Of a DNA stretch of 64,000 nt, positions 36,347 through 60,496 are shown piece by piece. The stretch is taken from positions 1 through 64,000 of the forward strand of contig NZ_BJUW01000013.1 of NCBI RefSeq assembly GCF_007988825.1, read 5' to 3'. A program made the position numbers and the translations under genes. Origin of the DNA: Microbacterium aerolatum. Lineage in GTDB: Bacteria; Actinomycetota; Actinomycetes; Actinomycetales; Microbacteriaceae. The notes under the pieces were generated by a model that was given only the letters and a program-made list of their open reading frames with translations, did not search any database and had not been told where the DNA came from. Every line of letters starts with the position of its first letter. The first letter of the stretch is position 1.

Positions 36347-36394
36347 CCTCGATCTTCCTTTCCGATGGGGCTGTGGGATCTGCCCCACTTCCTA

Positions 36395-43257: not shown

Positions 43258-43670
43258 GCCAGCACGACCTCTCGCTCGACCGGTACGCGGTTGGTCACGT
43301 ACCGACCGGGGCCGCCGTCCACTCCGGGCATGATCTGCATGTAGAGCAGCCGCATGGTGAGGACGACCTCGGCGGTGAGACGCTCGCCTGAGACCGGAGG
43401 CGTGTCGAGGCGGATGACGACATCCGGCCGGTCGGCCACGAACCACAGCGTCTCGGACTGCTCCGGCAGTTCGTCGATCGTGTACGACCGCCCCTCGAGC
43501 TCGAAGCGCAGGTCCTCGCGCGCGATCTCGACGCCGTTCACGGTCGCCGCGACGTCGTCGACGGCCGAGAGCCAGAGGCTGCGATACCAGGGAAGCTGCA
43601 CCGAGACGGCGATCCCGTCGTCAGTGCGACGGACGTCCTTCTCGGCGAAGAGCGAGTTGTGCGTTGCCAT
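43254..43670 (-). CDS. C-glycoside deglycosidase beta subunit-like protein
   Basis: Protein of 138 aa, ribosome site AGGAG. Motifs VQLPWYRSLWLSAVDD, LPEQSETLWFVADRP and LLYMQIMPGVDGGPGRYV are shared nearly residue for residue with the N-terminal domain of the fusion at 53054 (IPWYRSLWLSSV, LPNQSETLWFLQEHP, LPYMQIAPGKDGAPGMYV). This is the DUF6379/CGDB family; in CarBC and DfgAB the beta subunit completes the active site and stabilises the barrel subunit. It lies 8 nt after the alpha gene and overlaps the Gfo/Idh gene. Confidence 0.85.
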   Translation of the reverse strand: MATHNSLFAEKDVRRTDDGIAVSVQLPWYRSLWLSAVDDVAATVNGVEIAREDLRFELEGRSYTIDELPEQSETLWFVADRPDVVIRLDTPPVSGERLTAEVVLTMRLLYMQIMPGVDGGPGRYVTNRVPVEREVVLA

Positions 43671-44728: not shown

Positions 44729-45834
44729 GCGCGTGCTCCCTTCAGAGCTGCGTGCGGAAGGTGAGCGGCGAGCGCGGCGCGCGCCTCGGCAGCATCCGTG
44801 ATCATGCGGCTGCCGGCGTTCTGCGCTGCCGAGCGCTGCACCGCCTGCTCGTCGCGGACGATGTCGAAGGGGCTCTCCCAGTTGTTCCAGTGCCAGCCCT
44901 CGTACTCGCTGGAGACCGCACCGGAGTAGCCGTTCTCGACGAGAAGGCCGATGAGGTCGCGAACCGGGACGGAGGGCTCCTCCTTGTTCTCGTCGATACC
45001 GAAGAACTTGCCATGCACGTGCTTGACCCATGGCATGATCTCGAGCCAGTCGTCGACGCGCGCGGGACCGAACAGGCCGGTGCCGTTGATGCCGAAGTCG
45101 ATCCCGAGATCGGGGCGGCCGTTCTGCGCGGCAAGGCCGATGAAGCGTCCGAAGCGCTGTCCGTGCTCCGCCTGATCGCGCGGGGGCCCCTGTTGGTAGA
45201 AGTCGTCCCACAGCGACACGACCTGCGCGAGCAGGTCTTCGGACGCACCGCGGCGACGGTAGGACTCGATGAGTGACGGCGCGAAGCCGGAGACCGTGGC
45301 GCCCCAGTCCATCGTGAACCCGAGGAACGGCGAGCCGACCTTCTCGTAGCGGTCGCGCAGCGCGAGGATGCGCGGGTGCGAGGCGTACTGATCGGCGTGG
45401 ACCTCGAGGGCGAGGGTCACGCCGTACTCCTCGGCGATGGGTGCGAGCTGTTCCATCGAGTCGGGCGTGATCGAGATCTGCACTCGAGCGATGGGGAATC
45501 CGAGTTTCGCGGCGGCGGCGATCTGCCGGCGCATGTAGGCGATCAGTTCCTCCTGGTCGAGGAGTCGATCACGATGGATGCCTATGTCGGCGTTGACCGC
45601 GAGGGAGGTGGTGACGAGCCCGACCTCATCGACCAGGTCGCGGAAGCGTCCGGCGAACGCGTCGTCGATCTCGGGGAATCCGCGGAAGCTCGAGAAGCCG
45701 ATGATCTCGAGGCCCGGGCCGTACCCCTCGGCCGCGACCTTTCGGATGAGCGCGTCGAGGTCGTACTCGCGCCCGTGGAACGCCCGGGTGAAGCTGTAGA
45801 GCGTCACACCCTGGATCGGAGTGCCGAGGGTCAT
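44725..45834 (-). CDS. Second deglycosidase alpha subunit-like TIM-barrel protein
   Basis: Barrel protein of 369 aa, clearly a paralogue of the next gene but diverged. Residues E144 (ALEVHAD), D176 (FTMDWGAT), H274 (KHVHGKFFGI) and E310 (SSEYEGW) occupy the metal positions. The loop with NMHG of the neighbour is replaced by FGINGTGLFGPARVDDWLEIMP. The last ~40 residues form an extra helical tail. Overlaps the upstream beta gene and the downstream alpha gene, each by ATGA. It may have a different aglycone or sugar specificity. Confidence 0.82.
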   Translation of the reverse strand: MTLGTPIQGVTLYSFTRAFHGREYDLDALIRKVAAEGYGPGLEIIGFSSFRGFPEIDDAFAGRFRDLVDEVGLVTTSLAVNADIGIHRDRLLDQEELIAYMRRQIAAAAKLGFPIARVQISITPDSMEQLAPIAEEYGVTLALEVHADQYASHPRILALRDRYEKVGSPFLGFTMDWGATVSGFAPSLIESYRRRGASEDLLAQVVSLWDDFYQQGPPRDQAEHGQRFGRFIGLAAQNGRPDLGIDFGINGTGLFGPARVDDWLEIMPWVKHVHGKFFGIDENKEEPSVPVRDLIGLLVENGYSGAVSSEYEGWHWNNWESPFDIVRDEQAVQRSAAQNAGSRMITDAAEARAALAAHLPHAALKGARA

Positions 45835-46226
45835 GCCGCTACCGCCTTCATGGTCTTGCGATCGTGCTCTTCGATGTGGAGCACCTCGGAGTCGGAGATG
45901 ACGATGTACGGGATGAACAGCGTGAGGTCGACGTCGACCGTGTGCTCGGCGTCGACGGCGAGGTCGAGATCTCCCGACAGCACGGCGGAGTCGACCGGGA
46001 ACCACCACTCCTCGGTGTTCGTCGAGAGTTCCTCGAAGGTGAACTCCTTGCCGTTCATCTGCCAGCGCAGCGAGTCGGCGGGGGCGGCGACGCCGTCCAC
46101 GGTGAGGCCGGCTCCGGCGATGCACGAGCCGGGAAGTGCGCGGTACCAGGGAATGCGGACCTCGACGGCGGCACGGCCGCCTTCGATCTTCAGCGTTCCC
46201 TGTTCGATGATGCGATCCGGGATCAC
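45831..46226 (-). CDS. Deglycosidase beta subunit-like protein, second type
   Basis: Protein of 131 aa beginning with GTG 46226 behind a strong ribosome site AGGAGG. AVEVRIPWYRALPGSCI, FTFEELSTNTEEWWFPVDS and a final all-beta stretch place it in the same DUF6379-type family as the other small proteins, with IPWYR conserved but the LPYMQIxPG loop missing. First gene of the beta-alpha-alpha-beta-Gfo/Idh-ThuA operon, so it most likely pairs with the alpha protein translated right after it. Confidence 0.8.
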   Translation of the reverse strand: MIPDRIIEQGTLKIEGGRAAVEVRIPWYRALPGSCIAGAGLTVDGVAAPADSLRWQMNGKEFTFEELSTNTEEWWFPVDSAVLSGDLDLAVDAEHTVDVDLTLFIPYIVISDSEVLHIEEHDRKTMKAVAA

Positions 46227-46291: not shown

Positions 46292-47812
46292 TCAGGTGTC
46301 TAACGCCGCGGCGATGGACCGCGCACCGCGAACCGCGAGCGCGACGCCGGTGAGGGTCGGGTTGCATGCGGTGGCGGTCGGGATGACGCCGTTGCCCGCG
46401 ACGAACAGGCCGGGTGTCGACCACACCTCGCTGTCGGGATCGCACACGCTCGTACCGTCGTCGGCCTGGCCCATCCGGGTGGTGCCCTGGTAGTGCAGTG
46501 AGCTGCCGATCGGCATGCGGAACGGGCGGTCATCGAGCGGTTCGCCCACCGCCTTTCCGAGCTCGACGATCTCGCGTTCCGCGCGCTCGAGGATCGCGTG
46601 GTCGGTGTCGGTGAGGCGGTAGCGAATGCGGGGTGCCGGCATCCCGTAGCCGTCGGTCTTCGTGTCCGAGAACTCGACACGGTCGTCTGCGCGCAGGTCC
46701 TTCGCGCAGAAGAACCCGATTCCGACGATGGATCCGGGGACGACCGGGTCGTCTTCGGCGAGAGGCACGGGCGAGGCATCCAGTTGCATGACCTGACCGT
46801 GGAAGGGCGTGTCGTCGGTGAACGGCACCCACGTCACGCCGCTGTACTCGTTGAGACCTGCCCCTTCACGAGCGGTGGTCGACACCTCCGCGGCATCCCG
46901 GATGCGGGTCGCGAACACGATCTGCGCCTGGTCGTTGAGGTACCGCCCGAGCGCGGCGGGGCGGATGCCGGATGCCCACAGGAGCTGCGGAGTGCGCAGC
47001 GCGTCGGCAGCGACGATCACGAAGCGCGCACGGACGTCGCGGCTCTCCTGCGTGCGCAGGTCGGTGACCCGCACGCCGGAGGCGCGACCGTCCTCGACGA
47101 GCACCTGGGTCACGAGCGACTCGTCGTACAGGGTGAATCTCGGGTTGTCGCGCGTGACATCACCGAGCACGACGTCGGAGCCCGACCACATGAGCCGTCC
47201 GTCGTCGCGGCGGTGCACCGCCAGCGGCATCCGCTGCACGCGCGACGCCGGAACGCGACCCTCGTCGACGGCTGCGGCGAGCCGTTCTCGGATGATGTCG
47301 CCGAAAGGGGTCGCGTCGAAGGCGTCGGTCGTGACGCCGAGCAGCCGCTCGGCCTCATCGAGCAGTTCATCGAGGTCGTCCAGGAACAGGATTCGCTCGC
47401 TGCCGCCGGGGCGCGGACACGCCGCCGTCCAGTGCGCCGCCATCCCGCCGACGTTGCTCGACATCGCGGCCACCGGCATGCCGTCTTCACCCGGCTCCTG
47501 GAAGCCGTCCTCCAGCAGATAGGTGCCGGGACGGGCACGGCGCTGGCCGGACTTCACCGCACCGGGCGAGTCGACGGTCGCGGCACGAGCACCCGGTCCC
47601 TCGGAGGCGCGCTGAGCCGCGGCGCGCTCCTCGGGATCGTCGATGTTCTTGACGTGCGCGCCGGCTGGATCCGAGACCGTCGGACCGACCTCGAACATCG
47701 CGATCGTCGTATCCGGTGCACGCTCTGTGAGAATCCGGGCATAGGCGGAGCCCGTCGGTCCGCTGCCGACGATGACCACGTCGACCTGCTGCGGATAGTC
47801 GCGGGCGCTCAC
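46292..47812 (-). CDS. GMC-type FAD oxidoreductase, C-glycoside 3-oxidase-like
   Basis: Flavin oxidase of 506 aa, paralogue of the protein at 26926. FAD motif IVGSGPTGSAYARIL, NVGGMAAHWTAACPRP near 119-134, and the GMC pair H440 (GSSLHYQGTTRMG) and N484 (TACNPTLTG). Same branch as CarA, which oxidises the glucosyl C3 hydroxyl of C-glycosides with oxygen as acceptor. Here it is the last gene of the sugar ABC operon and directly follows a barrel isomerase (ATGA overlap), and it lies back to back with the deglycosidase operon, making it the prime candidate for the activating oxidation. Confidence 0.87.
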   Translation of the reverse strand: MSARDYPQQVDVVIVGSGPTGSAYARILTERAPDTTIAMFEVGPTVSDPAGAHVKNIDDPEERAAAQRASEGPGARAATVDSPGAVKSGQRRARPGTYLLEDGFQEPGEDGMPVAAMSSNVGGMAAHWTAACPRPGGSERILFLDDLDELLDEAERLLGVTTDAFDATPFGDIIRERLAAAVDEGRVPASRVQRMPLAVHRRDDGRLMWSGSDVVLGDVTRDNPRFTLYDESLVTQVLVEDGRASGVRVTDLRTQESRDVRARFVIVAADALRTPQLLWASGIRPAALGRYLNDQAQIVFATRIRDAAEVSTTAREGAGLNEYSGVTWVPFTDDTPFHGQVMQLDASPVPLAEDDPVVPGSIVGIGFFCAKDLRADDRVEFSDTKTDGYGMPAPRIRYRLTDTDHAILERAEREIVELGKAVGEPLDDRPFRMPIGSSLHYQGTTRMGQADDGTSVCDPDSEVWSTPGLFVAGNGVIPTATACNPTLTGVALAVRGARSIAAALDT

Positions 47813-48603
47813 GCCTCTGCCGCCAGCCGGACGATCCGCTCGACCGAGGCCTCCGAGGCGGTCTGCGGGTAGTACTCGAGTCCGATCGGCCCGTCGTAGC
47901 CCGAGCGGCGCAGGATGCCGAGGCGGTCGGCCCAGTCGAGCTCGCCGGTTCCGGGCTCACCGCGGCCGGGAGCATCGGCGAGTTGGACATACTTGATGAG
48001 GTCGCCGCCGTTCGCGAGTTCTGCGGCCATGTCCTCCCCCTCCACGGCGGAGTGATAGATGTCGTAGAGCACGCCGAAGTGCGCGGAGTCGACGCCGCGG
48101 GCGACGTACACGGCCTCGGCGGTGCGGTCCAGGAGCGAGCCGGGGTGGTCGACGCGGACGTTGACCGGCTCGAGCACCAGCGTGATGCCGGAGCCGTCGA
48201 TCTGGGCGATCGCCTGCTGGTAGATCTCCACGAGCTTGTCGAGCTGCACCTGCCGCTTCCACCCGCCGAAGCCCGTGCCGCTGCCGACGACGATCCGCGG
48301 GCACCCGAGGTCGTGTGCGATCGCGACCCCCTCATCGAGCTTGCGGTAGAACTCGGAGTGGTCCCACGGCGGGATCATGAACTGCGTACGCGGCTCGGAC
48401 AGCTGGGCTGTGAGCTGCGTGCCGGTCTCCTCGAGCGCGGCCTTCAGCGCCGGGATGTCCTTCGGCGTCGCCGGAGCGTCGACTCCGGTGGGTCCCCACA
48501 TCTCGACCGCGGTGAATCCGGCGGCAGCCGCCGCACGGACCCGGTCGTGGTAGTCGCCGGCTTCGGCGAAGAGCAACTCGATGTTGGGGGACAGCTGGTA
48601 CAT
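47809..48603 (-). CDS. Sugar phosphate isomerase/epimerase, hydroxypyruvate isomerase-like
   Basis: TIM barrel of 264 aa in the Hyi/AP-endonuclease-2 family. VEMWGPTG, ITLVLEPVNVRVDHPG (E), FGVLYDIYHSAVEGED (D, H), YVQLADAPGRGEPGTGELDW (H-like site as Q/D) and IGLEYYP (E) are the standard motifs. Such enzymes isomerise 3-keto-sugars or hydroxypyruvate and recur in 3-keto-glycoside clusters. Located between the sugar importer and the 3-oxidase-like gene. Confidence 0.85.
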   Translation of the reverse strand: MYQLSPNIELLFAEAGDYHDRVRAAAAAGFTAVEMWGPTGVDAPATPKDIPALKAALEETGTQLTAQLSEPRTQFMIPPWDHSEFYRKLDEGVAIAHDLGCPRIVVGSGTGFGGWKRQVQLDKLVEIYQQAIAQIDGSGITLVLEPVNVRVDHPGSLLDRTAEAVYVARGVDSAHFGVLYDIYHSAVEGEDMAAELANGGDLIKYVQLADAPGRGEPGTGELDWADRLGILRRSGYDGPIGLEYYPQTASEASVERIVRLAAEA

Positions 48604-48666: not shown

Positions 48667-49503
48667 TCAGCCCTTGAGGCCGCCGGCGAACCCCTGGATG
48701 AAGCGCTTCTGGGCGAACAGGTAGAAGGCGAGGATCGGGATCATCGAAACGATGACGATCGCGAAGATCTTGTTCCAGGACGAGACGAGCGAACCGATGT
48801 AGTAGTACATCGCGACCGGGAGGGTCTGGTTCTCCGAGCCGCCGAGGAAGATGAGCGAGGTGAAGAAGTCGTTCCACACGATGAGCCCTGCGAGGATCGC
48901 GACCGTGCCGGTCGCCGGAGACATCAACGGGAGCACGATGCGGAAGAAGATCTGCGTGCGCGAGGCCCCGTCGATCGTGGCCGCCTCTTCGTACTCGGTG
49001 CCGAGGCCCCGGAAGAAGCCGGCGTAGAGGAAGATCGACAGCGGCAGCAGCATCCCGGTGTAGAGGATGATCATGCCCCAGATCGAGCCGGTCAGGCCGA
49101 TGGTGCGCGCACCGATGTACAGCGGCACGGTTCCGAGCTGCGTGGGAAGCACGATGGCGATGAGGAACAGGTAGTATACCGTCCGGCTCCAGCGTCGGGT
49201 GCTGCGGGAGATGACGTACCCCGTCAGGGCGCCGAGCAGCACGAGTCCGAGGATGCTTCCCGCGGTGATGAGGATGCTGTTGACCAGACCCATCACGACG
49301 TTCGAATTGCCCTGGGCCGTGAGCACCTCGACGAAGTTCGAGAAGTCGACGCTCGTAGGCGGGGCCAAGTTGGACGAGGTGATGACCTCCTGATCCGACT
49401 TCAGCGCCGTGGTGACCAGGAAGTAGAACGGGGCGAGGAAGATCAGGGCGAACACCCAGATGAGGACCTCGCGGAGCGCGGTGAGCTTCGTGTAGCGGAA
49501 CAT
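48667..49503 (-). CDS. Carbohydrate ABC transporter permease (MalG/CUT1 type)
   Basis: Membrane subunit of 278 aa with six hydrophobic segments. EEAATIDGASRTQIFFRIVLP is the MalG EAA loop, GLIVWNDFFTSLIF and the C-terminal KRFIQGFAGGLKG are typical of the family. Begins one base after the stop of the MalF-type gene. Part of the importer that likely brings glycosides or oligosaccharides into the cell for the oxidase and deglycosidases. The ATPase is not encoded here, as is common when MsiK-type shared ATPases are used in actinobacteria. Confidence 0.93.
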   Translation of the reverse strand: MFRYTKLTALREVLIWVFALIFLAPFYFLVTTALKSDQEVITSSNLAPPTSVDFSNFVEVLTAQGNSNVVMGLVNSILITAGSILGLVLLGALTGYVISRSTRRWSRTVYYLFLIAIVLPTQLGTVPLYIGARTIGLTGSIWGMIILYTGMLLPLSIFLYAGFFRGLGTEYEEAATIDGASRTQIFFRIVLPLMSPATGTVAILAGLIVWNDFFTSLIFLGGSENQTLPVAMYYYIGSLVSSWNKIFAIVIVSMIPILAFYLFAQKRFIQGFAGGLKG

Positions 49504-49504
49504 G

Positions 49505-50473
49505 TCAGGACTCCTCGGGGCGGCCGTTGGTCACGCGCTGCTGGATGATCGCGAAGACCAGGATGACGACGGTGAGCAGGAGCGCGAGCGCGGCACCGTA
49601 GCCGAAGTTCCCGAGCGCGAAGGACTCCTTGTACACCTGGGTGGCGAGCGTCTCCGTGGCCCCCGCGGGACCGCCACCGGTCATCGCCATGATCTGGTCG
49701 AAGACGCGCAGTCCGTTGACGAGCCCGAGCGTCGTCGCGATCGCGACGGCGGGGCGGATGGACGGGAACGTGACGTGCCAGAACCGCTGGCGGAGGTTCG
49801 CACCGTCGATTGCGGCGGCCTCTTCGATCTCCACTGGAACGGCGGCGAGCCCCGCCATGTAGATGACCATGGCGAAGCCGGTGTTCTGCCAGACGACGAC
49901 GATCAGGATGGTCCAGATCGCGAAGGTCGGATCTGCGACCCAGGCCTTGGCGAACTCTTCGAGGCCGATGGAGCGCAGGAACGCGTTGATCGGCCCGTTG
50001 AAGTCGAAGATGAACTTCCACACGTACGAGACGGCGAGCGGGCTGAGCACGACCGGCATGAAGAACAGCACCCGCAGCGCGTAACGGGTCTTCAGCCCGC
50101 GATTGAGGGCGAGGGCGAGGCCGAGACCGACGACGTTGCTGAGGATGACGGAGACGAACGCCAGGAAGAGCGTGTTGCTGAGTGCGCCGACCTGCGTAGG
50201 ATCGCCGAAGATCTTGGCGAAGTTGGCGAACCCGATCCAGTTGAACGATCCGATTCCGGACCAGTCGGTGAATGCGAAGAAGCCTCCGACGGTGGTCGCG
50301 ACATAGTGGATCGCGATGACGAGGAGGATGCCCGGAAGCGCCCACCACCAGTGCCCGAACTTCAGCAGCCCCGGGCGGCGCGGCGCCGGATTACGGTGAC
50401 GGCCCCGGCGATTGCGCTTCGGGACGATCACCAGCTCTGTCTCTGTTTCGGCGTCGATCATCTTGGTGGGCAT
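49505..50473 (-). CDS. Carbohydrate ABC transporter permease (MalF/CUT1 type)
   Basis: Membrane subunit of 322 aa. A basic N-terminus (KRNRRGRHRNPAPRRP) precedes six hydrophobic segments; EEAAAIDGANLRQRFWHVTFP is the EAA loop. Start ATG 50473 chosen because the upstream part of the open frame has no hydrophobic or family-like sequence. 80 nt downstream of the binding-protein gene. Confidence 0.92.
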   Translation of the reverse strand: MPTKMIDAETETELVIVPKRNRRGRHRNPAPRRPGLLKFGHWWWALPGILLVIAIHYVATTVGGFFAFTDWSGIGSFNWIGFANFAKIFGDPTQVGALSNTLFLAFVSVILSNVVGLGLALALNRGLKTRYALRVLFFMPVVLSPLAVSYVWKFIFDFNGPINAFLRSIGLEEFAKAWVADPTFAIWTILIVVVWQNTGFAMVIYMAGLAAVPVEIEEAAAIDGANLRQRFWHVTFPSIRPAVAIATTLGLVNGLRVFDQIMAMTGGGPAGATETLATQVYKESFALGNFGYGAALALLLTVVILVFAIIQQRVTNGRPEES

Positions 50474-50553
50474 GAGATCCTCGTGTGCTCGTGCATCGGA
50501 AGTGGTGGGGCGATGACTGCCCGGGAAGCGGGGCTCCCCGGGCAGTCGTGCGA

Positions 50554-51852
50554 TCAGTCGCCGTATGCGGCGTCCATGTCCTGGAGGACCTGATCGACCG
50601 TCTTCTGTCCTGTCAGCAGACCCTGGACGCCCACCTGGAGCGCCTCGTACACCGAAGGGTTCGGCCAGATGTTGTTCGGCAGCGGCGTGAACGAGCCCTC
50701 TGCGAGAAGGTCGACGACCGGGGAGTAGATCGTGTCCTCGAGGTCGAGCTCCTGGTACGACGAGACCGGCAGGAGACCGGACTTCTCGTAGTACAGCGTC
50801 TGCGCTTCGGACGACGCGAGCCACTCGACGAACGCGGCCGCGGCGTCCTTGGCCTCCGATGCGGCGTTGATCGAGATCGTGTAGTTGGAACTGGCGATGA
50901 TGTAGGGATCCCCGCCGTCGGCTGCCGGGAAGGGCTGCACCTTGAAGTCGGCCTCCGGCGGCGCGGCGGCCGCGATCTCGACGGCCGAACCCGATGGGAT
51001 GAAGCTGCCCACCGAGACACCCTGGGCGAGACCGTTCGTGATGGCGTCGAAGCCTGCGCCCTCTGCACCGGGCTGGAAGCAGCCACCCTCGTGCAGGTCC
51101 ATGACCGTCTGCAGGGTGTCGGCCCAGCCTTCGCTCTCGGCGAAGGTCGTCTCGCCGTCGGCGCGCTGCTGGTTCCAGTCAGGCGTTTCGGCGTACACGC
51201 GGGTCGCGGCGATGCCCTGCGCCGTGAGGCCGGCGTTCGGGCCGGCGGCGCCGGCGAGCGCAAGGAGCGACTTGCCGTCTGCGGCGAGCGCGGTGCACGC
51301 GTCGTACATGTCCGCCTCGGTGGTCGGCCACTCGTCGAGGCCGTTCATCGCCGCGGTGCCCATGCTCGTGACGACAGCTGCGATCGTGAAGTCCATCGGC
51401 TGGCCGTAGGTCTTGCCGTCGATCTCGAAGATCGTCTCGCTGCCCTCCGGTACGAGGCCCTCGGCGGTGGCGCCCAGTGGCTCGAGGAACCCGGCCTCTG
51501 CGAGCGGGATGACACCGCGCGCATCACCGGAACCGGGCGTCGTCTGGATGACGTCCGAGGCGTTGCCGGCCTGCAGCTGCGTGCGGATCGTCTCGCCGTA
51601 CTTGTCGTTCGGCGTCGGGTTGGTGGTGATCTCGACGTCGGGGTTCGCCTCCATGTAGGCCTTGGCGAGCGACTCGTACGGGCTCTCGAGGTTGTTGGAC
51701 GTGGCGAACGTGAACGAGAACGACTGCGACTCGCCTCCGTCGCCGGCGTCGTCGGTTCCACCGGCGGAGCAGCCGGCAAGGATGAGGGCTCCCACGGTCG
51801 CGACGGCGAGAGTGCCGGTGCGGAGGACGTGAGTGCGGCGGTGCTGTGTCAT
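50554..51852 (-). CDS. Carbohydrate ABC transporter substrate-binding lipoprotein
   Basis: Family 1 extracellular binding protein, 432 aa. Signal peptide with lipobox LAGC, Cys28 lipid anchor. Mature region has ESLAKAYMEANPDVEITTNP, GSGDARGVIPLAEAGFLEPL, and the C-terminal AAAAFVEWLASSEAQTLYYEKSGLLPV motif of CUT1 binders. Start ATG 51852 is preceded by AAAGGCTGG. First gene of the importer/isomerase/3-oxidase operon, divergent from a LysR regulator. Ligand probably a glycoside. Confidence 0.92.
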   Translation of the reverse strand: MTQHRRTHVLRTGTLAVATVGALILAGCSAGGTDDAGDGGESQSFSFTFATSNNLESPYESLAKAYMEANPDVEITTNPTPNDKYGETIRTQLQAGNASDVIQTTPGSGDARGVIPLAEAGFLEPLGATAEGLVPEGSETIFEIDGKTYGQPMDFTIAAVVTSMGTAAMNGLDEWPTTEADMYDACTALAADGKSLLALAGAAGPNAGLTAQGIAATRVYAETPDWNQQRADGETTFAESEGWADTLQTVMDLHEGGCFQPGAEGAGFDAITNGLAQGVSVGSFIPSGSAVEIAAAAPPEADFKVQPFPAADGGDPYIIASSNYTISINAASEAKDAAAAFVEWLASSEAQTLYYEKSGLLPVSSYQELDLEDTIYSPVVDLLAEGSFTPLPNNIWPNPSVYEALQVGVQGLLTGQKTVDQVLQDMDAAYGD

Positions 51853-51940
51853 GTCCAGCCTTTCTGACTTCGTTGTCGGCGACTCGTTCATCGGGCCGCC
51901 CGCTGTTCTGCCAGTATCGTCCCGATGTGCCAGAAACACA

Positions 51941-51971
51941 CATAAGCTGTTTCGATATGCGGCATAAGCTG
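51941..51971. promoter_or_regulatory. Direct repeat CATAAGCTG x2, candidate LysR-type binding site
   Basis: CATAAGCTG occurs at 51941-51949 and 51963-51971 with a 22-nt period, two helical turns. It lies in the 236-nt divergent region between the binding-protein gene and lysR-type gene, about 90-120 nt upstream of each start. Confidence 0.5.
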
Positions 51972-52088
51972 GCGCGAACCGGATGGCGAATGCCCCGCAT
52001 CCGGCTGAGCGATGGCCCCTGGCGTGCACATAGATTGCATCGATAGACTGACGGCACCCGATCCCCTCTCCCGAAGGGTCACATCGTT

Positions 52089-53024
52089 GTGACAGATCAC
52101 GCGCTTCTCTCTCGTCTCGACCTCAACCTCCTGGTCTCACTCGACGCACTGCTCACCGAACGCAGCGTGACGAGGGCCGCGGATCGCCTCCATCTCAGCC
52201 AGCCGGCGCTGAGCGCGTCGCTCGCCCGACTGAGGACGCACTTCAACGACCAGATCCTGGCGCGGCGCGGCAACACCTATGAGCTCACGCCTTTCGCACT
52301 GCGACTTTCGGAGCACACCTCGACGGCACTTGAGGCCGCGCGCCGCGTGTTCGAGAGCCAGGCGACGTGGGCACCGTCGGACTCGACCCGGGAGTTCTCG
52401 ATCTACGGCTCCGACTACGGGTTCGCCACGGTCGGCGCCGCAGTCTCGAAGCTCGCGGCAGACCGTGGTCTCGGCATCCGGTTCCGGTTCATGCTTCACA
52501 ATCCGACCGTCGTCGAGGATGCCGCCACACGCCTGCGCTCCGCGGACGCGCTGATCATCCCGCACGGGTTCCTCACCGATCTCGCGTACGCCGACCTGTG
52601 GCGCGACGACTGGGTGGCGATCGTCTCCGACGACCATCCGTCGGTCGGCGAGACGCTGACCATGGAAGAGCTCGGTACGCTCCCCTTCGTGATGACATAC
52701 CAGTCGCGGTCGGCATTCACGTCGGCGAGCAGGCAGATCCAGCAGCTCGGCATCGAGCCGCGCGTCGAGGCTGTCGTGGAGAGCTTCCTGTCGATGCCGC
52801 TGTTCGTGTCCGGAACCGACCGGGTCGGTTTCGTGCAGCGCGCGCTGGCGCCCGTCGTCACGCGCCTCGGCGGCGTGCGGGTCGTCGGGCTGCCGTTCGA
52901 TGCGACGCCGATCGTCAACGCGGTCTGGTGGCACCCCGTTCATGGCCGGGATCCGGAGCACGCCTGGATGATCGATCTCCTCCGCGAGGCGGGCGAAATC
53001 GTCCAGGCAGGCGAGCACGCCTGA
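52089..53024 (+). CDS. LysR family transcriptional regulator (NodD-like subgroup)
   Basis: Regulator of 311 aa, GTG start. LDLNLLVSLDALLTERSVTRAADRLHLSQPALSASLARLR is the HTH region (about residues 10-50, core AADRLHLSQPALSASLARL). LVSLDALL and the SMPLFVSGTDRVGFVQRAL effector-domain motif are typical of the NodD/aromatic-responding subgroup, whose ligands include flavonoids and other phenolics. It diverges from the sugar importer operon and converges on the fused deglycosidases, so it may sense the aromatic part of the glycoside. Confidence 0.9.
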   Translation: MTDHALLSRLDLNLLVSLDALLTERSVTRAADRLHLSQPALSASLARLRTHFNDQILARRGNTYELTPFALRLSEHTSTALEAARRVFESQATWAPSDSTREFSIYGSDYGFATVGAAVSKLAADRGLGIRFRFMLHNPTVVEDAATRLRSADALIIPHGFLTDLAYADLWRDDWVAIVSDDHPSVGETLTMEELGTLPFVMTYQSRSAFTSASRQIQQLGIEPRVEAVVESFLSMPLFVSGTDRVGFVQRALAPVVTRLGGVRVVGLPFDATPIVNAVWWHPVHGRDPEHAWMIDLLREAGEIVQAGEHA

Positions 53025-53053: not shown

Positions 53054-54529
53054 TCACACCGCCTGGAGCGACCTCATCGTCGTGCGGATCAGGTCGTGCT
53101 GCCTGCGCACGAGCACGAGCGGGTCGACCTCGCCGAGCTCGGCGAACGCATGCCCCTCCCATTCGCTCGACCAGTACCCGCGGTAGCCGCCCTCGACGAA
53201 CACTCGCACGAGCTCGGGGTAGTCGATCGCAGGCTCCTGACCGTGCTCGTCGATGTCGTAGAACTTCGCGTGCACGTGCATGATCTGCGGCATGATGTCG
53301 GCCCACTCGCGCGGGTCGACGTGGCCGTGCATGTTGAATGCGAGGTGCGCGAAGGACCCGAGTCGACCCGGGTCGAAATCGCGCCCCGTGAGGTAGCCGA
53401 TGAACTCCTGCTGACGCTCCTGCATCGTGGCATCCGTCGCCCAGATCTGCTGCAGACGGGCGAGCGCCTCGTCGTCGAGACCGGCGCGCTGCACGGCACG
53501 CAGAAGCGTCGGCGACATCGCGTGCATGGTCGACGAGAAGTCGGCGACGAATCCGAGCAGTGGCGAGTCGAGGGCGGCATAAGTGTCGCGCACCTTCATG
53601 ATCGGCTCGGCGTTCGGGCCCATCGGAGCGTGGATCTCATAGGCGAGCTTCAGCTCGAGTTCCTCGGCGATCGGAAGCAGTCGCCGCAGCAGTTCCGGCT
53701 TCGCGCTCTGGATGCGCACGAGCGGGAAGCCCAGCTTCTTCGCACCGCGGAACATGAGCTCGCTGAAGGCGAACTCCTCGTCGGGGGTCATGTCGCGGTC
53801 GCGTCGGCGTCCCATGTCGAGGTTCGCGCCGAACGAGCTGGCGTCGAAGCCGTGGCGATCGAATGCCGTCCGCCACGTGCGCTCGAATTCGTCGGAGACG
53901 ACGGGGTACGTCGGCACCATCTGCGACGCGACGATCTCGATGCCGGGACCGATGCCGAGTTCGGACACGCGGTCGAGCAGCCCGTCGAAGTCGTACCAGC
54001 CGGCGCGGAACTCCGCGGATGCCGAGTAGAGCGTGAGACCCAGCCGGAACGGGTCGGCATCGGTCGCCGGCGGAGCCGGCGGAACGTCGGAGACCAGCGC
54101 CGGAGCGGGCGCGTCGGCATCCGTCACCGTCAGCGAGAGAGAGTCCCGGACGAAGTTGGGTACATACATACCCGGCGCGCCGTCCTTCCCGGGAGCGATC
54201 TGCATGTACGGCAAGCGCAACTGCCCGACGAGCGTGATCTCGTACTTCTCACCGAGTTCGACCGGGCGCTCTCCCTTGGCCACCAGCAGCGGATGCTCCT
54301 GCAGGAACCAGAGCGTCTCACTCTGGTTCGGCAGCTCCTCGAGGCGGTATTCGCGGTCGCCGAGGACGAAGCGGAGGTCGTCCTGTGGCACGGGCTTGCC
54401 GTCGACGGTCAGCTCGAGGCTGGTCACCGATGACAGCCACAGGCTGCGGTACCAGGGGATGGTGAGGCGCAGCGCGAGGCCGTCCGGGTGCGGACGGAGG
54501 CTGTCGGCGTGGATGAGTCCGTTGGGCAT
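53054..54529 (-). CDS. Single-chain beta-alpha fusion of C-glycoside deglycosidase-like subunits
   Basis: Protein of 491 aa. Residues 1-135 are a beta-subunit domain (IPWYRSLWLS 24-33, LPNQSETLWF 66-75, LPYMQIAPG 106-114); 136-160 is an Ala/Pro/Asp linker; 161-491 is the TIM-barrel alpha domain with E298 (YEIHAP), D330 (VADFSST), H420 (MHVHAKFYDI) and E456 (SSEWEGH). Its two parts match the separate proteins at 43254 and 43679 closely. In the known CarBC and DfgAB enzymes the subunits are separate chains, so this is a natural fusion. ATG 54529 has GGAAAG upstream. Gap of 13 nt from the next fusion gene. Confidence 0.87.
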   Translation of the reverse strand: MPNGLIHADSLRPHPDGLALRLTIPWYRSLWLSSVTSLELTVDGKPVPQDDLRFVLGDREYRLEELPNQSETLWFLQEHPLLVAKGERPVELGEKYEITLVGQLRLPYMQIAPGKDGAPGMYVPNFVRDSLSLTVTDADAPAPALVSDVPPAPPATDADPFRLGLTLYSASAEFRAGWYDFDGLLDRVSELGIGPGIEIVASQMVPTYPVVSDEFERTWRTAFDRHGFDASSFGANLDMGRRRDRDMTPDEEFAFSELMFRGAKKLGFPLVRIQSAKPELLRRLLPIAEELELKLAYEIHAPMGPNAEPIMKVRDTYAALDSPLLGFVADFSSTMHAMSPTLLRAVQRAGLDDEALARLQQIWATDATMQERQQEFIGYLTGRDFDPGRLGSFAHLAFNMHGHVDPREWADIMPQIMHVHAKFYDIDEHGQEPAIDYPELVRVFVEGGYRGYWSSEWEGHAFAELGEVDPLVLVRRQHDLIRTTMRSLQAV

Positions 54530-54542
54530 GATGTCTTTCCGT

Positions 54543-55844
54543 TCAGAGCTTGTCTGCGACCTGGCGCATGAGCGAGTGCTGGCGGCGAACCTGCTCGATG
54601 GACCGCCACGGGATGCGCTCGCCCTCGTACTCGCTGGAGAGGTAGCCGGTGTACCCGGCATCCTTGAGGGCGCGAAGGACCGGCTCCCACGGGATCTGCT
54701 GATCTTCGAGCGCGTCGTCGATGTCGTGGAACTTCGCCTGGATGAAGACGACGTGGTCGATGATGTCGAAGACATCGGCTGGGTCGACACCGATGCCGTC
54801 GAGGAATGCCGGACGGCGGCCGGGCAACTCGCCCGGGGCCAGGGGGATCGGCCGATCCTGGAAGATCCCGGTGTCGAGCAGCAGCCCGAAGTGCTTCGTG
54901 CCGGTGCGCTTGATCAGTTCGATGTAGTCGTCGACGACCTCGTGCTTGATCGGTGTCGGCGAGTGGATCTCGGGGCAGATGATGACATCGAGCTCCTCCG
55001 CCAGCGGAAGGCTCGCCTCGACCACGTCGGTCCAGATCGGGTGCGGGATGAGGTCGCCGGAGACGACGCCGATCTTCGGGCGCACGAAGCGGAACCCGAG
55101 TCGCTTCGCGAGCCGGAGGTCTCGTTGCAGGGCGGCGGCGCCCTCTTCGACGGTCATGTCACGGCCGTGCTCGCCGCTGGAGTGCAGGCGGGTGTCGATC
55201 CAGGAGCCATAGTTGGTCGGTTCGAGACCGTAGACCTCGAGCAGCCGGAACCACTCGTCGACCCACTCCTGCGGCGGGTCCGGGTAGTTCGGCACGTGGC
55301 CCTCACCGAGGATCTCGACACCGGTCGCCCCGAGGTCGGCGATCGAATGCAGGGCCGTCTCGAGGTCGGTGTTGGTGCCGTAGTCACCCATGAAGCTGTA
55401 CAGCGAGACGCCGTAGGTGAACGGGGCGCCCTTCGCTTCGGGCGAGAGCGTCACGTGCTTGGTGACCTGATAGCGGCTGGGCTGGTGCTCCTGCGGAATG
55501 TACGACATGCGCAGGCGCAGGTCGATCGAAAGCTCGTGGATGCCGTCGGGCAGACCCCCTGGCAGGGGAACGGTGACGACCGCGGCATCCTCCAGCTGCC
55601 AGCGAACGCCGTCGCTCTGCCACAGTTCTTCGAGCGTGTACGTCTTGCCCTGCAGCGTCCACAGCGGGATCTCGGGCGCGACATCGACGTGGCCGGGGAT
55701 GCTGACGCCGATGCCGTCGATCAACGAAGCGGCCATGCCGCGGTACGACGGCATCCGCACTCGGAACTGGAATCCGGTGATCTCGCCGCCCTCACGGACG
55801 TTGCGGAATCCGACGGACTGGATGAGGTCTCTCTCGAGAAGCAT
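54543..55844 (-). CDS. Second beta-alpha fusion, deglycosidase-like, diverged metal site
   Basis: Protein of 433 aa. Residues 1-135 form a beta-type domain (RVRMPSYRGMAASLID, LWTLQGKTYTLEELWQSDGVRWQL, RMSYIPQEHQPSRY) and residues 140-433 the barrel. Metal-site positions are E292 (PEIHSP), D324 (LLLDTGI), Q369 (FIQAKFHDI) and E405 (SSEYEGE): glutamine replaces the histidine found in the other alpha copies. The linker is much shorter than in the fusion at 53054. First gene of the pair. Probably a different substrate or a distinct elimination/isomerisation step. Confidence 0.83.
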   Translation of the reverse strand: MLLERDLIQSVGFRNVREGGEITGFQFRVRMPSYRGMAASLIDGIGVSIPGHVDVAPEIPLWTLQGKTYTLEELWQSDGVRWQLEDAAVVTVPLPGGLPDGIHELSIDLRLRMSYIPQEHQPSRYQVTKHVTLSPEAKGAPFTYGVSLYSFMGDYGTNTDLETALHSIADLGATGVEILGEGHVPNYPDPPQEWVDEWFRLLEVYGLEPTNYGSWIDTRLHSSGEHGRDMTVEEGAAALQRDLRLAKRLGFRFVRPKIGVVSGDLIPHPIWTDVVEASLPLAEELDVIICPEIHSPTPIKHEVVDDYIELIKRTGTKHFGLLLDTGIFQDRPIPLAPGELPGRRPAFLDGIGVDPADVFDIIDHVVFIQAKFHDIDDALEDQQIPWEPVLRALKDAGYTGYLSSEYEGERIPWRSIEQVRRQHSLMRQVADKL

Positions 55845-55922: not shown

Positions 55923-58712
55923 CTATTCGCGCATAACGGGATCTTCTGCGTGTGAGATCTTCTCGAGCGACGCTGCGATCTGAGCGACGACGGGGCCAGG
56001 GACGCTGAAGAGCGCCGCCGCCAGTGGCGTCTGCAACGTCCAGTCGGTCCTTCTTCGAACGTTGTCCGCCAAGGCAGGGTCATGCTCGTCCAGGACGCTC
56101 ATGACCGCAGCGTAAGCTGCGGGATCGTCGACGACCGCGGAGACCGGCGACCACAACGTCGATGCGGCAACCGGCACCGGGCGCTCGTCATCCGTCACCC
56201 AGGAGTAGCTGCCGGTACCCACCTCCTGGCGCTCGACGCCCGGGATCTCCACGACCGCTCGGGCATGGGCCGGCACGGTCAGCGACCACTCGATCTGGGC
56301 CCCACGACGCCGCCACCCGCCTCGGATTCTCCCCGAGACGGTATCGACCTCGGCTTCGATGTCGTCAAGGCCGGCAAGAGCCACCGGTGCGAATCGGATG
56401 CCGGCATATCCAGGCTCCTCCGGCGTGATTCCAGCCAAGCGCCGATACATCCAATCGACGACCGCGCCCAGAGCGTAGTGATTGAACGACGTCATCTCTC
56501 CGGGGTTGATCGAGCCGTCAGGAAGCATGGAATCCCATCTTTCCCAGATGGTGGTCGCCCCCATCGTCACCGGGTACAGCCACGACGGCGCTCGGGTCTG
56601 CAGCAACAGCGCCGAGGCCTCCCGGTCGTACCCGTGGTCGGTGAGGGCATCCAGTACGAGCGGCGTCCCGATGAAGCCGGTGGAGATGTGGAAGGCGTCG
56701 CGCTTGACGACGTGCGCGAGCCGGGAAGCCAGTGCGCGACGGACATCGTCGTCGGTGATCAGATCGAACTGCAGAGCCAGCGCATAAGCGGTCGGGGCAT
56801 CCGAAAGCATCCTTCCGTCGGCGGTGAGGTAGGCGGAGCGGAACGCCTCTCGCACCTGTGCTGCCTGTGCGCTCGCGCGCTGAGCACCGCCGGAATGTCC
56901 ACCGCGTTCTGCAGCGACGGCGAGCAGATCGAGCGATCGGCACAGGTAGGAGGTTGCGACGATGCCCGGCGCGACCTTCGAAGCGCCCGCCATGTCCGGC
57001 GGAGCCGACGGATCCAACCAATCGCCGAACTGCAGCGTCGTCTCCCACAATCCCACCCCGCCGGCGGCTTCGATCTCTTTATCGACCCACGCCCGCATGG
57101 ATGCGATGGAGTCGACGAGGACACCCTCATCGGCGTATCGCTCTTCGAGAACACTGGGCACGATCGTGGCTGCGTCACCCCACCCTGCCGCGGGCCACGC
57201 GAAGCCGAACACGTTCGGCACAATCGTGGGAACCACACCACCGCTGCTGTCCTGATCCAGACGAAGGTCGGTGAGCCAGTTCGCCAGGAATGCATTGCAG
57301 TCGAAGAGCGTGGATGCTGTCGGCGCGAAGATCTGGGCGTCTCCGGTCCAGCCGAGGCGCTCGTCACGCTGAGGGCAATCGGTGGGAAGCGCGAGAAAGT
57401 TGCCACGCATACTCCAGACGACATTCTCGTGCAGACGCTGCAGCAGCGGATGCGATGTCGTCAGCCACCCCGTGCGGCGCATGTCACTGTGCAACACCAC
57501 GGCGCGGATCGCCGCGGGATCGAGGATGCCCGGCCAACCGGACACCTCTGCATATCGAAACCCGTGGAAGGTGCCAGAGGGTTCGAAGACGTCACGTTCA
57601 CTTCCCGACAGGATGAAAGTGTCCGTCGCCGCGGCGCGGCGCAGCGGTCGCGTCGCGATCTCGCCGTCCTCGAGCACTTCGGCGTGGCGAATCACGACCT
57701 CAGTACCCGCCGGCCCGGACACTGAGAACCGCAGCCGGCCGACGATGTTCTGACCGAAATCCAGCACCGTCCGACCGGACGGCGTCGTGATCACCTCGAG
57801 CACCTCACGTTCGGCGATGCGCCGGACCGGCTCGCTGAATCGAGCGACAGGCACCGGCTGCTGGGCGCCGACGACGGCAGCGGGCCATCGAGGCGCTGTC
57901 GTCAGCCACCAGTCCTCGGCGCGCCGCAGGTCGATCTTCTCGCCGTCGTAGATTCCAGAAGTGATGAATGCGCCGGCGCCGGATGCTTCCCACTCGCCAT
58001 CCGAGCTGATGACCTCTTCCGTGCCGTCGGCGTAGCGGAGGTGCAGTTGGGCTGCCACCGACGGCTGATCGCCGTAGACGCGCTCGGCCTCGTCTGCGAA
58101 CCCGTAGCTTTCCGTATACCAGCCGCCGAACACCTCGAATCCGAGCGTGTGATCACCGGCTGATAGGAGAGCAGTGACATCGACCGTCTCATGCAACACG
58201 CGGTGCGGATAAGAGGTCCACCCCGGAGACAGCACGGCGTCGTCGACGACGCGCCCGTCGACGCGAAACGTCGCGACTCCCAGAGCCGACCAATACATCG
58301 TTGCGCAGACGAGTTCACCGGAGATGTGAATGCGGTGTCGAGCGATGAACGGCTGCGCCGCGGCATCCGGTTCCGCAAGCGCCACGAATGCCGCTCGCCA
58401 CTCGTCGACGTCGAGGGCGCCGAACCGGATCACGCACGGCCCGCTCTCCAACCAGTTACCTTCGCCATCGCGCACCCGCACACGAACGGTGACCTCCTGC
58501 CTCGGCAACAGGTCATCGAATGGCCAGGCGACGAGCACGTGGTCAGCGCCATCGAGCACGGCGCTGCGGCTGTCATCGAGGAGCACTTCCGCGGCGGTCT
58601 GCACCCACCCGGGCTCGGAGGTCTCGACGACCCAGCTCAGTCGGGGCCGGGCCGTGGCCACCCAGGGCGAATCTTCGCGGTACTCCGCACGGAGCTTCAC
58701 GGTCGTCGTCAT
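55923..58712 (-). CDS. Alpha-L-rhamnosidase, glycoside hydrolase family 78
   Basis: Large glycosidase of 929 aa that removes terminal alpha-L-rhamnose, for instance from flavonoid rhamnosides. N-terminal fibronectin/concanavalin-like domains carry GWTSYPHRVLHETVDVT and DFGQNIVGRLRFSV; the (alpha/alpha)6 barrel has the GH78 signature TDCPQRDERLGWTGDAQIF with the catalytic acid region, followed by MGATTIWERWDSMLPDGS and SFNHYALGAVVDWMYRRLAG. No signal peptide, so rhamnosides are handled inside the cell. ATG 58712 overlaps the GH3 stop by ATGA. Confidence 0.93.
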   Translation of the reverse strand: MTTTVKLRAEYREDSPWVATARPRLSWVVETSEPGWVQTAAEVLLDDSRSAVLDGADHVLVAWPFDDLLPRQEVTVRVRVRDGEGNWLESGPCVIRFGALDVDEWRAAFVALAEPDAAAQPFIARHRIHISGELVCATMYWSALGVATFRVDGRVVDDAVLSPGWTSYPHRVLHETVDVTALLSAGDHTLGFEVFGGWYTESYGFADEAERVYGDQPSVAAQLHLRYADGTEEVISSDGEWEASGAGAFITSGIYDGEKIDLRRAEDWWLTTAPRWPAAVVGAQQPVPVARFSEPVRRIAEREVLEVITTPSGRTVLDFGQNIVGRLRFSVSGPAGTEVVIRHAEVLEDGEIATRPLRRAAATDTFILSGSERDVFEPSGTFHGFRYAEVSGWPGILDPAAIRAVVLHSDMRRTGWLTTSHPLLQRLHENVVWSMRGNFLALPTDCPQRDERLGWTGDAQIFAPTASTLFDCNAFLANWLTDLRLDQDSSGGVVPTIVPNVFGFAWPAAGWGDAATIVPSVLEERYADEGVLVDSIASMRAWVDKEIEAAGGVGLWETTLQFGDWLDPSAPPDMAGASKVAPGIVATSYLCRSLDLLAVAAERGGHSGGAQRASAQAAQVREAFRSAYLTADGRMLSDAPTAYALALQFDLITDDDVRRALASRLAHVVKRDAFHISTGFIGTPLVLDALTDHGYDREASALLLQTRAPSWLYPVTMGATTIWERWDSMLPDGSINPGEMTSFNHYALGAVVDWMYRRLAGITPEEPGYAGIRFAPVALAGLDDIEAEVDTVSGRIRGGWRRRGAQIEWSLTVPAHARAVVEIPGVERQEVGTGSYSWVTDDERPVPVAASTLWSPVSAVVDDPAAYAAVMSVLDEHDPALADNVRRRTDWTLQTPLAAALFSVPGPVVAQIAASLEKISHAEDPVMRE

Positions 58713-60496
58713 GATCGGGTCGTCGCGCTTTCGTCTGCTGCCGCGCTCACAGCCACATGCCACCCCGCGGGGAACAGGGGGGCAAGCGTGTCGTTGAGCG
58801 CGTCAGGAGCGCTCCGCGCGACCGCGGCCATCGAACGAGGCAGTTCGAACGGCAGTTGCCCCTCGGCAGTCGTAGCCCCGCACAGCACCTGAAGTACAGC
58901 CGCATCTGACGCTCCGAAGTCGGCGACGATGGCGGCGACCTCGTCCACGAACGGCGTCAAGATCGCCGGCCGGTTCATCTCAACGACGAGAATCACAGGA
59001 ACCCGTCGCGCCAACCCCACGATGCGCTCGATGAGCGCGTCAGGGAACTCTAGGCTTCCCTGCTGCATCCCTGCTTCGAGGAAGTAGTGGTCTCGGTGCT
59101 CCCACGGCGCGCGGACTCTCACGATCGCCACATCCGCGAGATCGGCGTCTACAGCGGCCCATCCATCCGGGAGCACCTCGGCGGATGTGTTCACGAGGTG
59201 CACCTTCTGTCGTCCTGCCAGCGGCAGAACGGGCGCAGCCTCCGAGCCGTTGTAAAGCACCGTGAGCGCTCGCGACTGTGCACTGGCGGCCAACTCAGCA
59301 TCGCCTGATCGAGGCAGGGCGGCGTGCGCGACAGCATCGCTCGGCGCGTCGTCAAGCAGGCCGAGTCCCACCATCAGCTGCACGATGCGCGCCGCCGACA
59401 CAGCGACGCGCTCAGCGTCCAGCAGGCCCGCGCTCATCGTGCTGCGGATGAGAGCAGAGTCCCTCTCGCCCCCGAGCTGATCGACTCCCGCTTCGAAGAT
59501 CCGCGCGACGCGCGCGGACTCGGACAGATGCTCGACCCCCCATGCGCGTGCGGGGAACGGTTTGCCCGCGATCTCGATGTCGGTGACGAGGCCGAAATCG
59601 CTGAGCACCACACCGTCGTAACCGAGGCGCTCCCGAAGCAGACCCGTGATGATCTGCCGATTGAACGCGAACCCGACCGGTTCGACGGGCTCGCCGTCAA
59701 GCTCCAGCCCCACCGGCATGCCGTAGTAAGGCATGATCGCCGCGGTTCCCGCCGCGATCGCCGTGCGAAACGGCTCGAGGTGGTCCTGGAACCGGCCACC
59801 CGGGTAGACCTGCTCTCGACCGTAGGGAAAATGGGGGTCTTCGCCGTCGAGCTGAGGTCCGCCGCCGGGAAAGTGCTTCACGGTTGCAGCGACGCTCTGC
59901 GGTCCGAGCTCGGGCCCCTGGAGTCCGTCGAGAAAGGCCTCCAGCATGTGGCTCGTCGTCTTGGGATCGGCGTGGAAACTCTGCGCTTGCCGGGCCCAAC
60001 GCGGCTCGGTGGCGAGATCAACCTGCGGGTGCAGGGCCATCCGTATCCCCATCGCCAGATAGTCCTGCCTGACGATGTCTGCATACCGGCGGACGAGCTC
60101 GACGTCGCCGATCGCACCCAGCCCAAGATTCTCCGGCCACTGAGACACCCCGGACGCCCGATGGGAAGCCCCGTCGTTCTGCATGAACGAGTGGCGTGGA
60201 TCTGTGGAGAACACCGCAGGGAGCTTCGAACCCGTGGAGCGAGCGATCTCCTGCAATCCGGCGAGAATCTCGGCGGTGGCTTTCGGGTCGGGAATCGAAC
60301 CGAGGCAGAAGAAGCGGATGCCGTGGTCTTCGATCAGCTCTCGCATGCTGGGTCCTCCGAACCCCGAGGACCCATCGGGATCGTGGTTGAGCGCCACGAT
60401 CGGATGCAACAGCAGCCCGATCTGCTGATCCAGGGAGAGCGCGTCGACGATCTCCCGTGCCCGGTTCACGCTGTGGGTCGTGTCGATCGTGGTCAT
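58709..60496 (-). CDS. Glycoside hydrolase family 3 protein
   Basis: Glycosidase of 595 aa, beta-glucosidase/exo-glucosidase-like. VKHFPGGGPQLDGEDPHFPYG around 207-226 is the substrate loop, and the nucleophile is D300 in YDGVVLSDFG. The C-terminal alpha/beta sandwich is present (VIRVRAPWEHRD, VPVILVVEMNRP), the fibronectin III domain is absent. Cytoplasmic by lack of signal peptide. Overlaps the ABC ATPase upstream and GH78 downstream. Expected to remove beta-linked glucose from imported glycosides. Confidence 0.9.
   Translation of the reverse strand: MTTIDTTHSVNRAREIVDALSLDQQIGLLLHPIVALNHDPDGSSGFGGPSMRELIEDHGIRFFCLGSIPDPKATAEILAGLQEIARSTGSKLPAVFSTDPRHSFMQNDGASHRASGVSQWPENLGLGAIGDVELVRRYADIVRQDYLAMGIRMALHPQVDLATEPRWARQAQSFHADPKTTSHMLEAFLDGLQGPELGPQSVAATVKHFPGGGPQLDGEDPHFPYGREQVYPGGRFQDHLEPFRTAIAAGTAAIMPYYGMPVGLELDGEPVEPVGFAFNRQIITGLLRERLGYDGVVLSDFGLVTDIEIAGKPFPARAWGVEHLSESARVARIFEAGVDQLGGERDSALIRSTMSAGLLDAERVAVSAARIVQLMVGLGLLDDAPSDAVAHAALPRSGDAELAASAQSRALTVLYNGSEAAPVLPLAGRQKVHLVNTSAEVLPDGWAAVDADLADVAIVRVRAPWEHRDHYFLEAGMQQGSLEFPDALIERIVGLARRVPVILVVEMNRPAILTPFVDEVAAIVADFGASDAAVLQVLCGATTAEGQLPFELPRSMAAVARSAPDALNDTLAPLFPAGWHVAVSAAADESATTRS

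Follow-up and report, generated by a model that had tools for sequence, protein, structure and literature searches.

Two tandem beta-alpha fusions, predicted to be single-chain C-glycoside deglycosidases, in Microbacterium aerolatum

Few enzymes are known to cleave a glycosidic bond between two carbon atoms; C-glycoside deglycosidases (CGDs) belong to them, and were first described as two-subunit complexes. Here we describe two adjacent genes of Microbacterium aerolatum, fusA and fusB, in which a CGD beta-type domain and an alpha-type barrel share one reading frame. Both lie in the window, that is, the whole 64,000-nucleotide stretch that was analysed (positions 1 to 64,000 of NZ_BJUW01000013.1, assembly GCF_007988825.1); it belongs to contig C13, in a genome of 3.2 Mb with a completeness of 100%. 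The locus holds five beta-alpha units, three split and two fused:

53054-54529, minus strand: fusA; beta domain at about residues 1-135, Pro/Ala-rich linker at about 135-161, lid-type TIM-barrel alpha domain at about 161-491
54125-54529, minus strand: beta domain of fusA; Tyr27 corresponds, by match ranges, to the oxyanion Tyr39 of the PuCGD beta subunit
53057-54049, minus strand: alpha domain of fusA (residue 161 on), the part compared with AgCGD2
54543-55844, minus strand: fusB; beta domain at about residues 1-133, lidless TIM-barrel alpha domain at about 142-433; orthologue of PDB 8QRZ
43254-43670, minus strand: beta1, split beta subunit, AgCGD2 beta-like
43679-44728, minus strand: alpha1, split alpha subunit, AgCGD2 alpha-like
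44725-45834, minus strand: alpha2, split alpha subunit, overlapping the end of beta2
45831-46226, minus strand: beta2, split beta subunit
39718-40128, plus strand: beta3, divergent beta
40144-41130, plus strand: alpha3, divergent alpha

Both fused frames are open throughout. The upstream gene on the minus strand, fusB, runs from an ATG at 55844 to a stop at 54545-54543 (433 amino acids), and after 13 nucleotides fusA follows, from an ATG at 54529 to a stop at 53056-53054 (491 amino acids); the starts, MPNGL... in fusA and MLLER... in fusB, are found again in most of the listed named relatives. The CGDB family (PF19906) was matched in Pfam at residues 16-108 of fusA (E = 1.1e-12, 48.2 bits against a cut-off of 27.6) and at residues 3-115 of fusB (E = 3.6e-33, 114.2 bits, above cut-off). 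A TIM barrel follows in frame at residues 167-423 of fusB (E = 3.9e-17, 63.2 bits, above cut-off) and at residues 216-469 of fusA, where the score (E = 6.4e-7, 29.7 bits) is slightly below the Pfam cut-off of 31.1; the barrel assignment in fusA is secured instead by a phmmer match to the alpha subunit of AgCGD2 (7dnm_A, E = 1.4e-126). Thus a beta domain is fused N-terminal to a barrel in both proteins, as an earlier sequence-only reading of the window had proposed, and split and fused versions do coexist here, with alpha1/beta1 and beta2/alpha2 beside fusA and fusB. The same reading called fusA near-identical in motifs to the split pair alpha1/beta1—the active-site motifs are indeed common to them, but fusA is a separate paralogue, with identities of 51% (172/336) in alpha and 43% (58/135) in beta. 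Between fusA and fusB the corresponding values are 32% and 23%. Across the whole genome PF19906 gave four matches at E ≤ 0.001, all inside the window (fusA, fusB, and two split betas).

A naturally fused CGD has already been solved, since PDB 8QRZ is a full-length orthologue of fusB. This Microbacterium testaceum C-glucosyl deglycosidase (8QRZ, with its cryo-EM partner 8UN2; released 2025-04-23) has been deposited twice, separately, and each time as one chain; that chain has 435 residues, with beta ahead of alpha as in fusB. Residues 1-433 of fusB are matched (E = 5.7e-261), the full-length structural alignment is 86% identical at 1.4 Å, and the M. testaceum NS220 orthologue of fusB (L157) has exactly the sequence printed for the 8QRZ chain (100% identity). 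The proposal that known enzymes of this kind consist of separate chains is overtaken by these entries, and because 8QRZ is one chain, separate chains can no longer be required of a CGD; fusA, one open frame of 491 codons, likewise departs from the separate chains of the first descriptions. No publication on 8QRZ or on a fused CGD was found in the open-licence PMC literature, a collection that leaves most subscription journals outside.

In contrast to fusB, fusA is a different paralogue from 8QRZ—289 residues align, at 30% identity, and fusA has a lid and a long linker. Among the 15 PDB sequences that match fusA, 8qrz (97.8 bits) is by chain length the sole fusion, and the best match is to split AgCGD2 (426 bits for alpha, 96 bits for beta). 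No solved structure corresponds to the lid-bearing fusA; its nearest solved relative is split AgCGD2 (AgCarB2-C2, PDB 7DNM/7DNN, from Arthrobacter globiformis), which is 56-58% identical in alpha and 39% in beta, and with which fusA shares the lid, every metal ligand, the His, and the beta Tyr. Structure comparison of the alpha domain with 7dnm_A gave a Z of 43.2, and that of the beta domain with 7dnm_B gave 39% identity at 1.8 Å. However, AgCGD2 consists of two separate chains, whereas fusA has its beta domain first, joined by a 19-residue linker; the gene order of the window's own AgCGD2-like split pair is alpha then beta, opposite to fusA.

The nearest split solved relative of fusB is EuCGD (DfgAB, PDB 7BVS/7DRE, from Eubacterium cellulosolvens), which is lidless and 38-40% identical in alpha; in contrast to the single chain of fusB, its separate chains form an alpha4beta4 complex (Mori 2021, PMC8563793). 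The Deinococcus aerius CGD (PDB 8QVC/8UMC) also has beta and alpha on separate chains, and its alpha is 28% identical to that of fusA. AtOGE, a 3-keto-O-glycoside eliminase, has the same central barrel fold with conserved metal site and His, but has neither a second subunit nor a lid (Bitter 2023, PMC10628242). The sequence-only reading had drawn two consequences from the fusions, of which the first, a 1:1 stoichiometry of alpha and beta, was nothing new, as the split enzymes characterised before generally have it, in alpha-beta and alpha4beta4 assemblies (Mori 2021, PMC8563793). The other, that fusion proves functional coupling of the two families, holds in a weaker form: the fusion supports coupling, but solved complexes had shown it earlier.

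The catalytic residues of the split enzymes are largely present in both fusions. In AgCGD2 the metal ligands are E147, D179, H269, K271, and E305, and the base is H149 (Mori 2021, PMC8563793); the ligands correspond to E298, D330, H420, K422, and E456 of fusA, and the catalytic His149 to H300. All five ligands and H149 are kept in 90/90 distinct fused A alphas, as is E307, and the beta Tyr39 is kept in 88/88 distinct fused A betas. Among distinct fused B proteins, E147, H149, D179, K271, E305, and E307 are kept in all 78 alphas and the beta Tyr in all 76 betas. The beta Tyr is Tyr27 in fusA and Tyr34 in fusB, the correspondence to Tyr39 being taken from match ranges and not from a printed alignment; in PuCGE this Tyr is needed far more for C- than for O-glycosides (Bitter 2023, PMC10628242). 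With 91 residues between D179 and H269, fusA is read as having the lid; fusB, with 46 residues there, lacks it. AgCGD2 is reported to have taken only a C8-glycoside. EuCGD suits homoorientin, a C6-glycoside (Mori 2021, PMC8563793); by analogy it is a guess that fusA and fusB may split C8- and C6-glycosides between them.

The third pair of the locus, beta3/alpha3, is divergent. The match of beta3 to PF19906 is weak (E = 3.1e-4, below the Pfam cut-off), and beta3 is in frame with alpha3, 15 nucleotides upstream of the alpha3 ATG. In proteins of this type His149 is replaced by Gln and Glu307 by Gly in 17/17 distinct alphas, with the metal ligands kept, and the equivalent of Tyr39 is Ile in 16/16 distinct betas; the pair has thus lost both the catalytic His149 and the beta Tyr39 of CGDs, and may catalyse a different reaction. 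In some relatives beta3 and alpha3 are fused (L099, L107, L119, L126, L255). On a Niallia plasmid (L261:2504-4111) the genes for beta and alpha are distinct and lie 15 nucleotides from each other, much like beta3/alpha3, and one fusB alignment covers both; this arrangement is a possible precursor state of a fusion.

We surveyed how widely the domain and its fusions are spread. PF19906 occurs in 44/198 genomes of the genus sample (own genome counted), in 20/299 genomes and 12/85 genera of the family sample, and in 5/394 genomes of the class sample; in the phylum sample a protein search with fusB, at E 1e-8, found 3/396 genomes. By hand count, 41 of the 45 B-type rows of at least 89 bits in the genus sample lie in open frames of at least 427 amino acids. 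Frame length was rejected as proof of fusion: G099, one of the 41, has a 745-amino-acid frame over a B-type beta, yet its beta and alpha are in different frames (L017, L182). Counted by locus, type-B beta and alpha share one frame at 26 of 30 genus loci (L009-L038, including the window's own L015), and at four they do not.

With fusA as the query, a scan of named genomes turned up 91 relatives, and we retained 80; because this query favours fused close relatives, counts over the 80 loci are no measure of prevalence. Of these loci, 75 have A fused in a frame of 450 or more amino acids with both domains, in ten named genera (Microbacteriaceae 57, Micrococcaceae 14, Demequinaceae 1, and three unassigned to a family), 63 have a fused B, and 61 have both fusions in tandem; fused A stands with a split B at six loci, and with no B found in reach at eight. 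At the other five loci, which lack a fused A, the frame is broken in L220 and L231, the gene is cut off by the contig end in L222, L228 is a Geodermatophilus split pair, and L232 is a match to split alpha1. The gap between the domain matches is 19 residues, 53% Pro plus Ala, in 86/92 distinct proteins of the fusA type, and 2-3 residues in 77/78 of the fusB type. Values of pN/pS, the ratio of nonsynonymous to synonymous polymorphism, are 0.16-0.25 for A and 0.13-0.32 for B (four pairs each), indicating purifying selection.

Among plasmid records, 22 matched fusA and 22 matched fusB, and five loci were opened. Both fusions lie on a 1-Mb plasmid of Arthrobacter sp. StoSoilB13, and outside Actinomycetota no fusion was found in the other four loci opened (three Novosphingobium and one Niallia), which hold split pairs; a Deinococcus plasmid match is annotated as two genes. 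Contigs filed under Planococcus (L220) and Fulvimarina (L222) both carry Microbacterium-like tandem CGD genes, and are probably misassigned. A. globiformis NBRC 12137 (L211), P. siccitolerans 4J27 (L201), and M. trichothecenolyticum DSM 8608 (L212) have two fused CGDs plus split betas.

In a tree of the alpha domains (75 rows), fused A stands beside split AgCGD2-like and Geodermatophilus alphas, and the two "split" rows inside its group are frame-broken copies. Within split B, the main fused B rows group together with support, and EuCGD and a phylum-level split relative lie outside that group; the sole "split" row inside the fused B group is cut at a contig start. For the alpha test, seven of the 75 rows were dropped (two long branches, one contig-end row, one divergent split B, and L131, L231, and L132, which are frame-broken or doubtful); a tree constrained to unite fused A and fused B in a single clade was 276 log units worse, with a p of 4.8e-54 in the approximately unbiased (AU) test. 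On the tree so reduced, there are two changes between the fused and split states if type 3 is left out, and four if it is included. A joint clade was also rejected for beta (89 rows, without L132; p = 9e-44), and, more weakly, in a rerun of 85 rows that leaves out L233-L252, L131, L132, L220, and L231 (p = 2.6e-4). Counter to our reading, the first beta tree also spoke against a single fused A clade (p = 0.005); this is due to labels, because L233-L235, cut inside fusA, and the frame-shifted L131 had been counted as split. In the rerun the fused A clade was not rejected (p = 0.67), and the constrained tree scored 8.4 log units above the unconstrained one. These trees indicate that fusA and fusB arose as independent fusions; the direction from split to fused would follow from nesting in trees that are not truly rooted. 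In many split B pairs the alpha start overlaps or touches the beta stop, and a minor shift of frame could therefore fuse such a pair. A candidate second B fusion (G090, L132) was set aside, as the genome has a completeness of 68% and a broken fusA; if real, the join would be one more fusion event.

An indel or lost stop, introduced in assembly or gene calling, could in principle merge two ordinary genes, and isolated frame-broken copies do occur (L220/L131, L231); the in-frame B join of L132 looks like just such an error. Nevertheless, fusA-type frames recur across ten genera, mostly in tandem with fusB and with a conserved linker length, and the fusB orthologue was solved as one chain in two separate depositions, one of them by cryo-EM. 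Conservation across independent genomes refutes an artefact, to which we give practically no credence. It is also very improbable that one ancestral fusion was duplicated and that later fissions produced the split pairs; the like beta-alpha order of the fusions seen and the adjacency of A and B in most fetched loci would suit such a history, but a joint clade is rejected for alpha and for beta, the fused A and fused B clades each adjoin different split relatives, and the linker lengths of A and B are unrelated.

The two fusions also seem to differ in where the beta domain sits. The AlphaFold2 model of fusA, a prediction from 64 aligned rows, has a pLDDT (predicted local distance difference test) of 92.9 and a pTM (predicted template-modelling score) of 0.91, with linker blocks at 87-95; that of fusB (pLDDT 88.2, pTM 0.86) fits 8QRZ over 433 residues at 1.4 Å. 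Superposed on 8QRZ over both domains, the fusA model gave 17.5 Å and TM-scores of 0.51/0.58—the barrels agree, the beta domains do not—and a second aligner matched 289 residues, all in 148-490, with zero from the beta domain. Provided that the fusA model is correct, the position of beta within the chain is not the same in the two fusions, and at most one of them is canonical in cis. The models suggest such a difference, perhaps one cis and one trans: fusA most likely seats the beta domain on its own barrel, and fusB, with about nine residues from the last beta-domain strand to the first barrel strand, may apply its own to a partner chain, the short linker pointing to a trans-acting fusion. Docking like that in CarBC had been expected of both, but probably not both of them dock in this way within one chain. 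We put forward only tentatively that these are opposite solutions, in which fusA would complete its active site within the chain by an ordered, fixed-length Pro/Ala linker, and fusB between the chains of a swapped homo-oligomer, so that two quaternary logics would stand side by side. That both instead dock canonically on their own barrels, the gap in geometry being an error of the fusA model, is unlikely though far from negligible: the model is only predicted, and the solved heterodimers of EuCGD and AgCGD2 fit PuCGD to 2.2 and 3.5 Å (Mori 2021, PMC8563793), but the pTM of fusA is high, the same method recovered 8QRZ, and a 17.5 Å mismatch exceeds the differences reported among known CGDs.

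The genes around the CGDs—a GMC oxidase, ABC importers, a rhamnosidase, a GH3 enzyme, and a LysR regulator—are as follows:

46292-47812, minus strand: GMC oxidoreductase, close to 7qf8 and 7dve
47809-48603, minus strand: sugar isomerase/epimerase-like TIM barrel, without a beta domain
48667-52029, minus strand: ABC importer, solute-binding protein and two permeases
52089-53024, plus strand: LysR-type regulator
55923-58763, minus strand: alpha-L-rhamnosidase with Bac_rhamnosid domains
58709-60496, minus strand: GH3 glycosidase

We take 7qf8 and 7dve to be C-glycoside 3-oxidases, and the GMC oxidase is a probable first step of the pathway. Genes resembling those of aromatic-ring breakdown lie at 26-37 kb of the window, and the neighbourhood as a whole is consistent with import, trimming, C3 oxidation, C-C cleavage, and use of the aglycone. 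On the minus strand at 26926-37937 are an MFS transporter, a second GMC oxidoreductase, an amidohydrolase, two FAA hydrolases, a cyclase, an FAD-binding monooxygenase-like protein, and a glyoxalase/extradiol-dioxygenase-like protein; a 492-amino-acid frame at 36459-37937 is without a Pfam match. At 25111-26922 on the plus strand, a sugar-isomerase-like barrel is joined to a hydroxyphenylpyruvate-dioxygenase-like part, in a protein that presumably resembles QsuB-type dehydroshikimate dehydratases.

A mechanism can be drawn from work on related enzymes (Mori 2021, PMC8563793; Bitter 2023, PMC10628242). O-linked sugars would be trimmed by the glycosidases, and C3 of the C-linked glucose oxidised by the GMC oxidase at 46292-47812; the barrel metal (Mn2+ in solved relatives) and the His would then take protons from the aglycone and from C2 of the 3-keto sugar, the beta-domain Tyr would stabilise the aglycone phenolate, and beta-elimination would cleave the C-C bond. 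Alternatively, fusA and fusB may act on 3-keto O-glycosides as AtOGE-like beta-eliminases, with a beta domain that merely tunes specificity; PuCGE also converts 3-keto-phlorizin, an O-glycoside (Bitter 2023, PMC10628242), and the rhamnosidase and GH3 genes adjoin. We consider this rather unlikely, given that AtOGE has no beta subunit and that the Tyr specifically required by PuCGE for C-glycosides (Bitter 2023, PMC10628242) is kept in both fusions. The GMC oxidase, moreover, is closest to 7qf8 and 7dve, the presumed C-glycoside 3-oxidases.

Taken together, fusA and fusB are very probably single-polypeptide CGDs in an island for flavonoid-glycoside catabolism, made by independent and selected beta-alpha joins, with an activity predicted from sequence. 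Several points weigh against this. The substrate could be a 3-keto O-glycoside, as discussed above; the trees were built by a quick method and rooted at the midpoint, and the beta alignment, with 134 columns kept, is a short one. In addition, fusB retains four of the five metal ligands, with Gln for H269—a replacement found in 78/78 distinct fused B alphas, in 20/21 split B alphas, and in the 8QRZ chain as printed, whereas EuCGD has His269.

The original observation is correct and concerns a real, old and conserved feature that is partly known through 8QRZ; what is new is fusA and the contrast between fusA and fusB. Strains that already serve in work on CGDs or glycoside oxidases (A. globiformis NBRC 12137, M. 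trichothecenolyticum DSM 8608, and P. siccitolerans 4J27) carry fused enzymes, of which we found no mention in passages of papers on these three species. As a single-gene, lid-bearing CGD, fusA would be available in a form that should be convenient for expression and engineering, and the fusA/fusB pair permits a direct comparison of cis and trans assembly. Two independent fusions, conserved in tandem beside split paralogues, amount to an experiment of nature on the conversion of a substrate-binding subunit into a domain.

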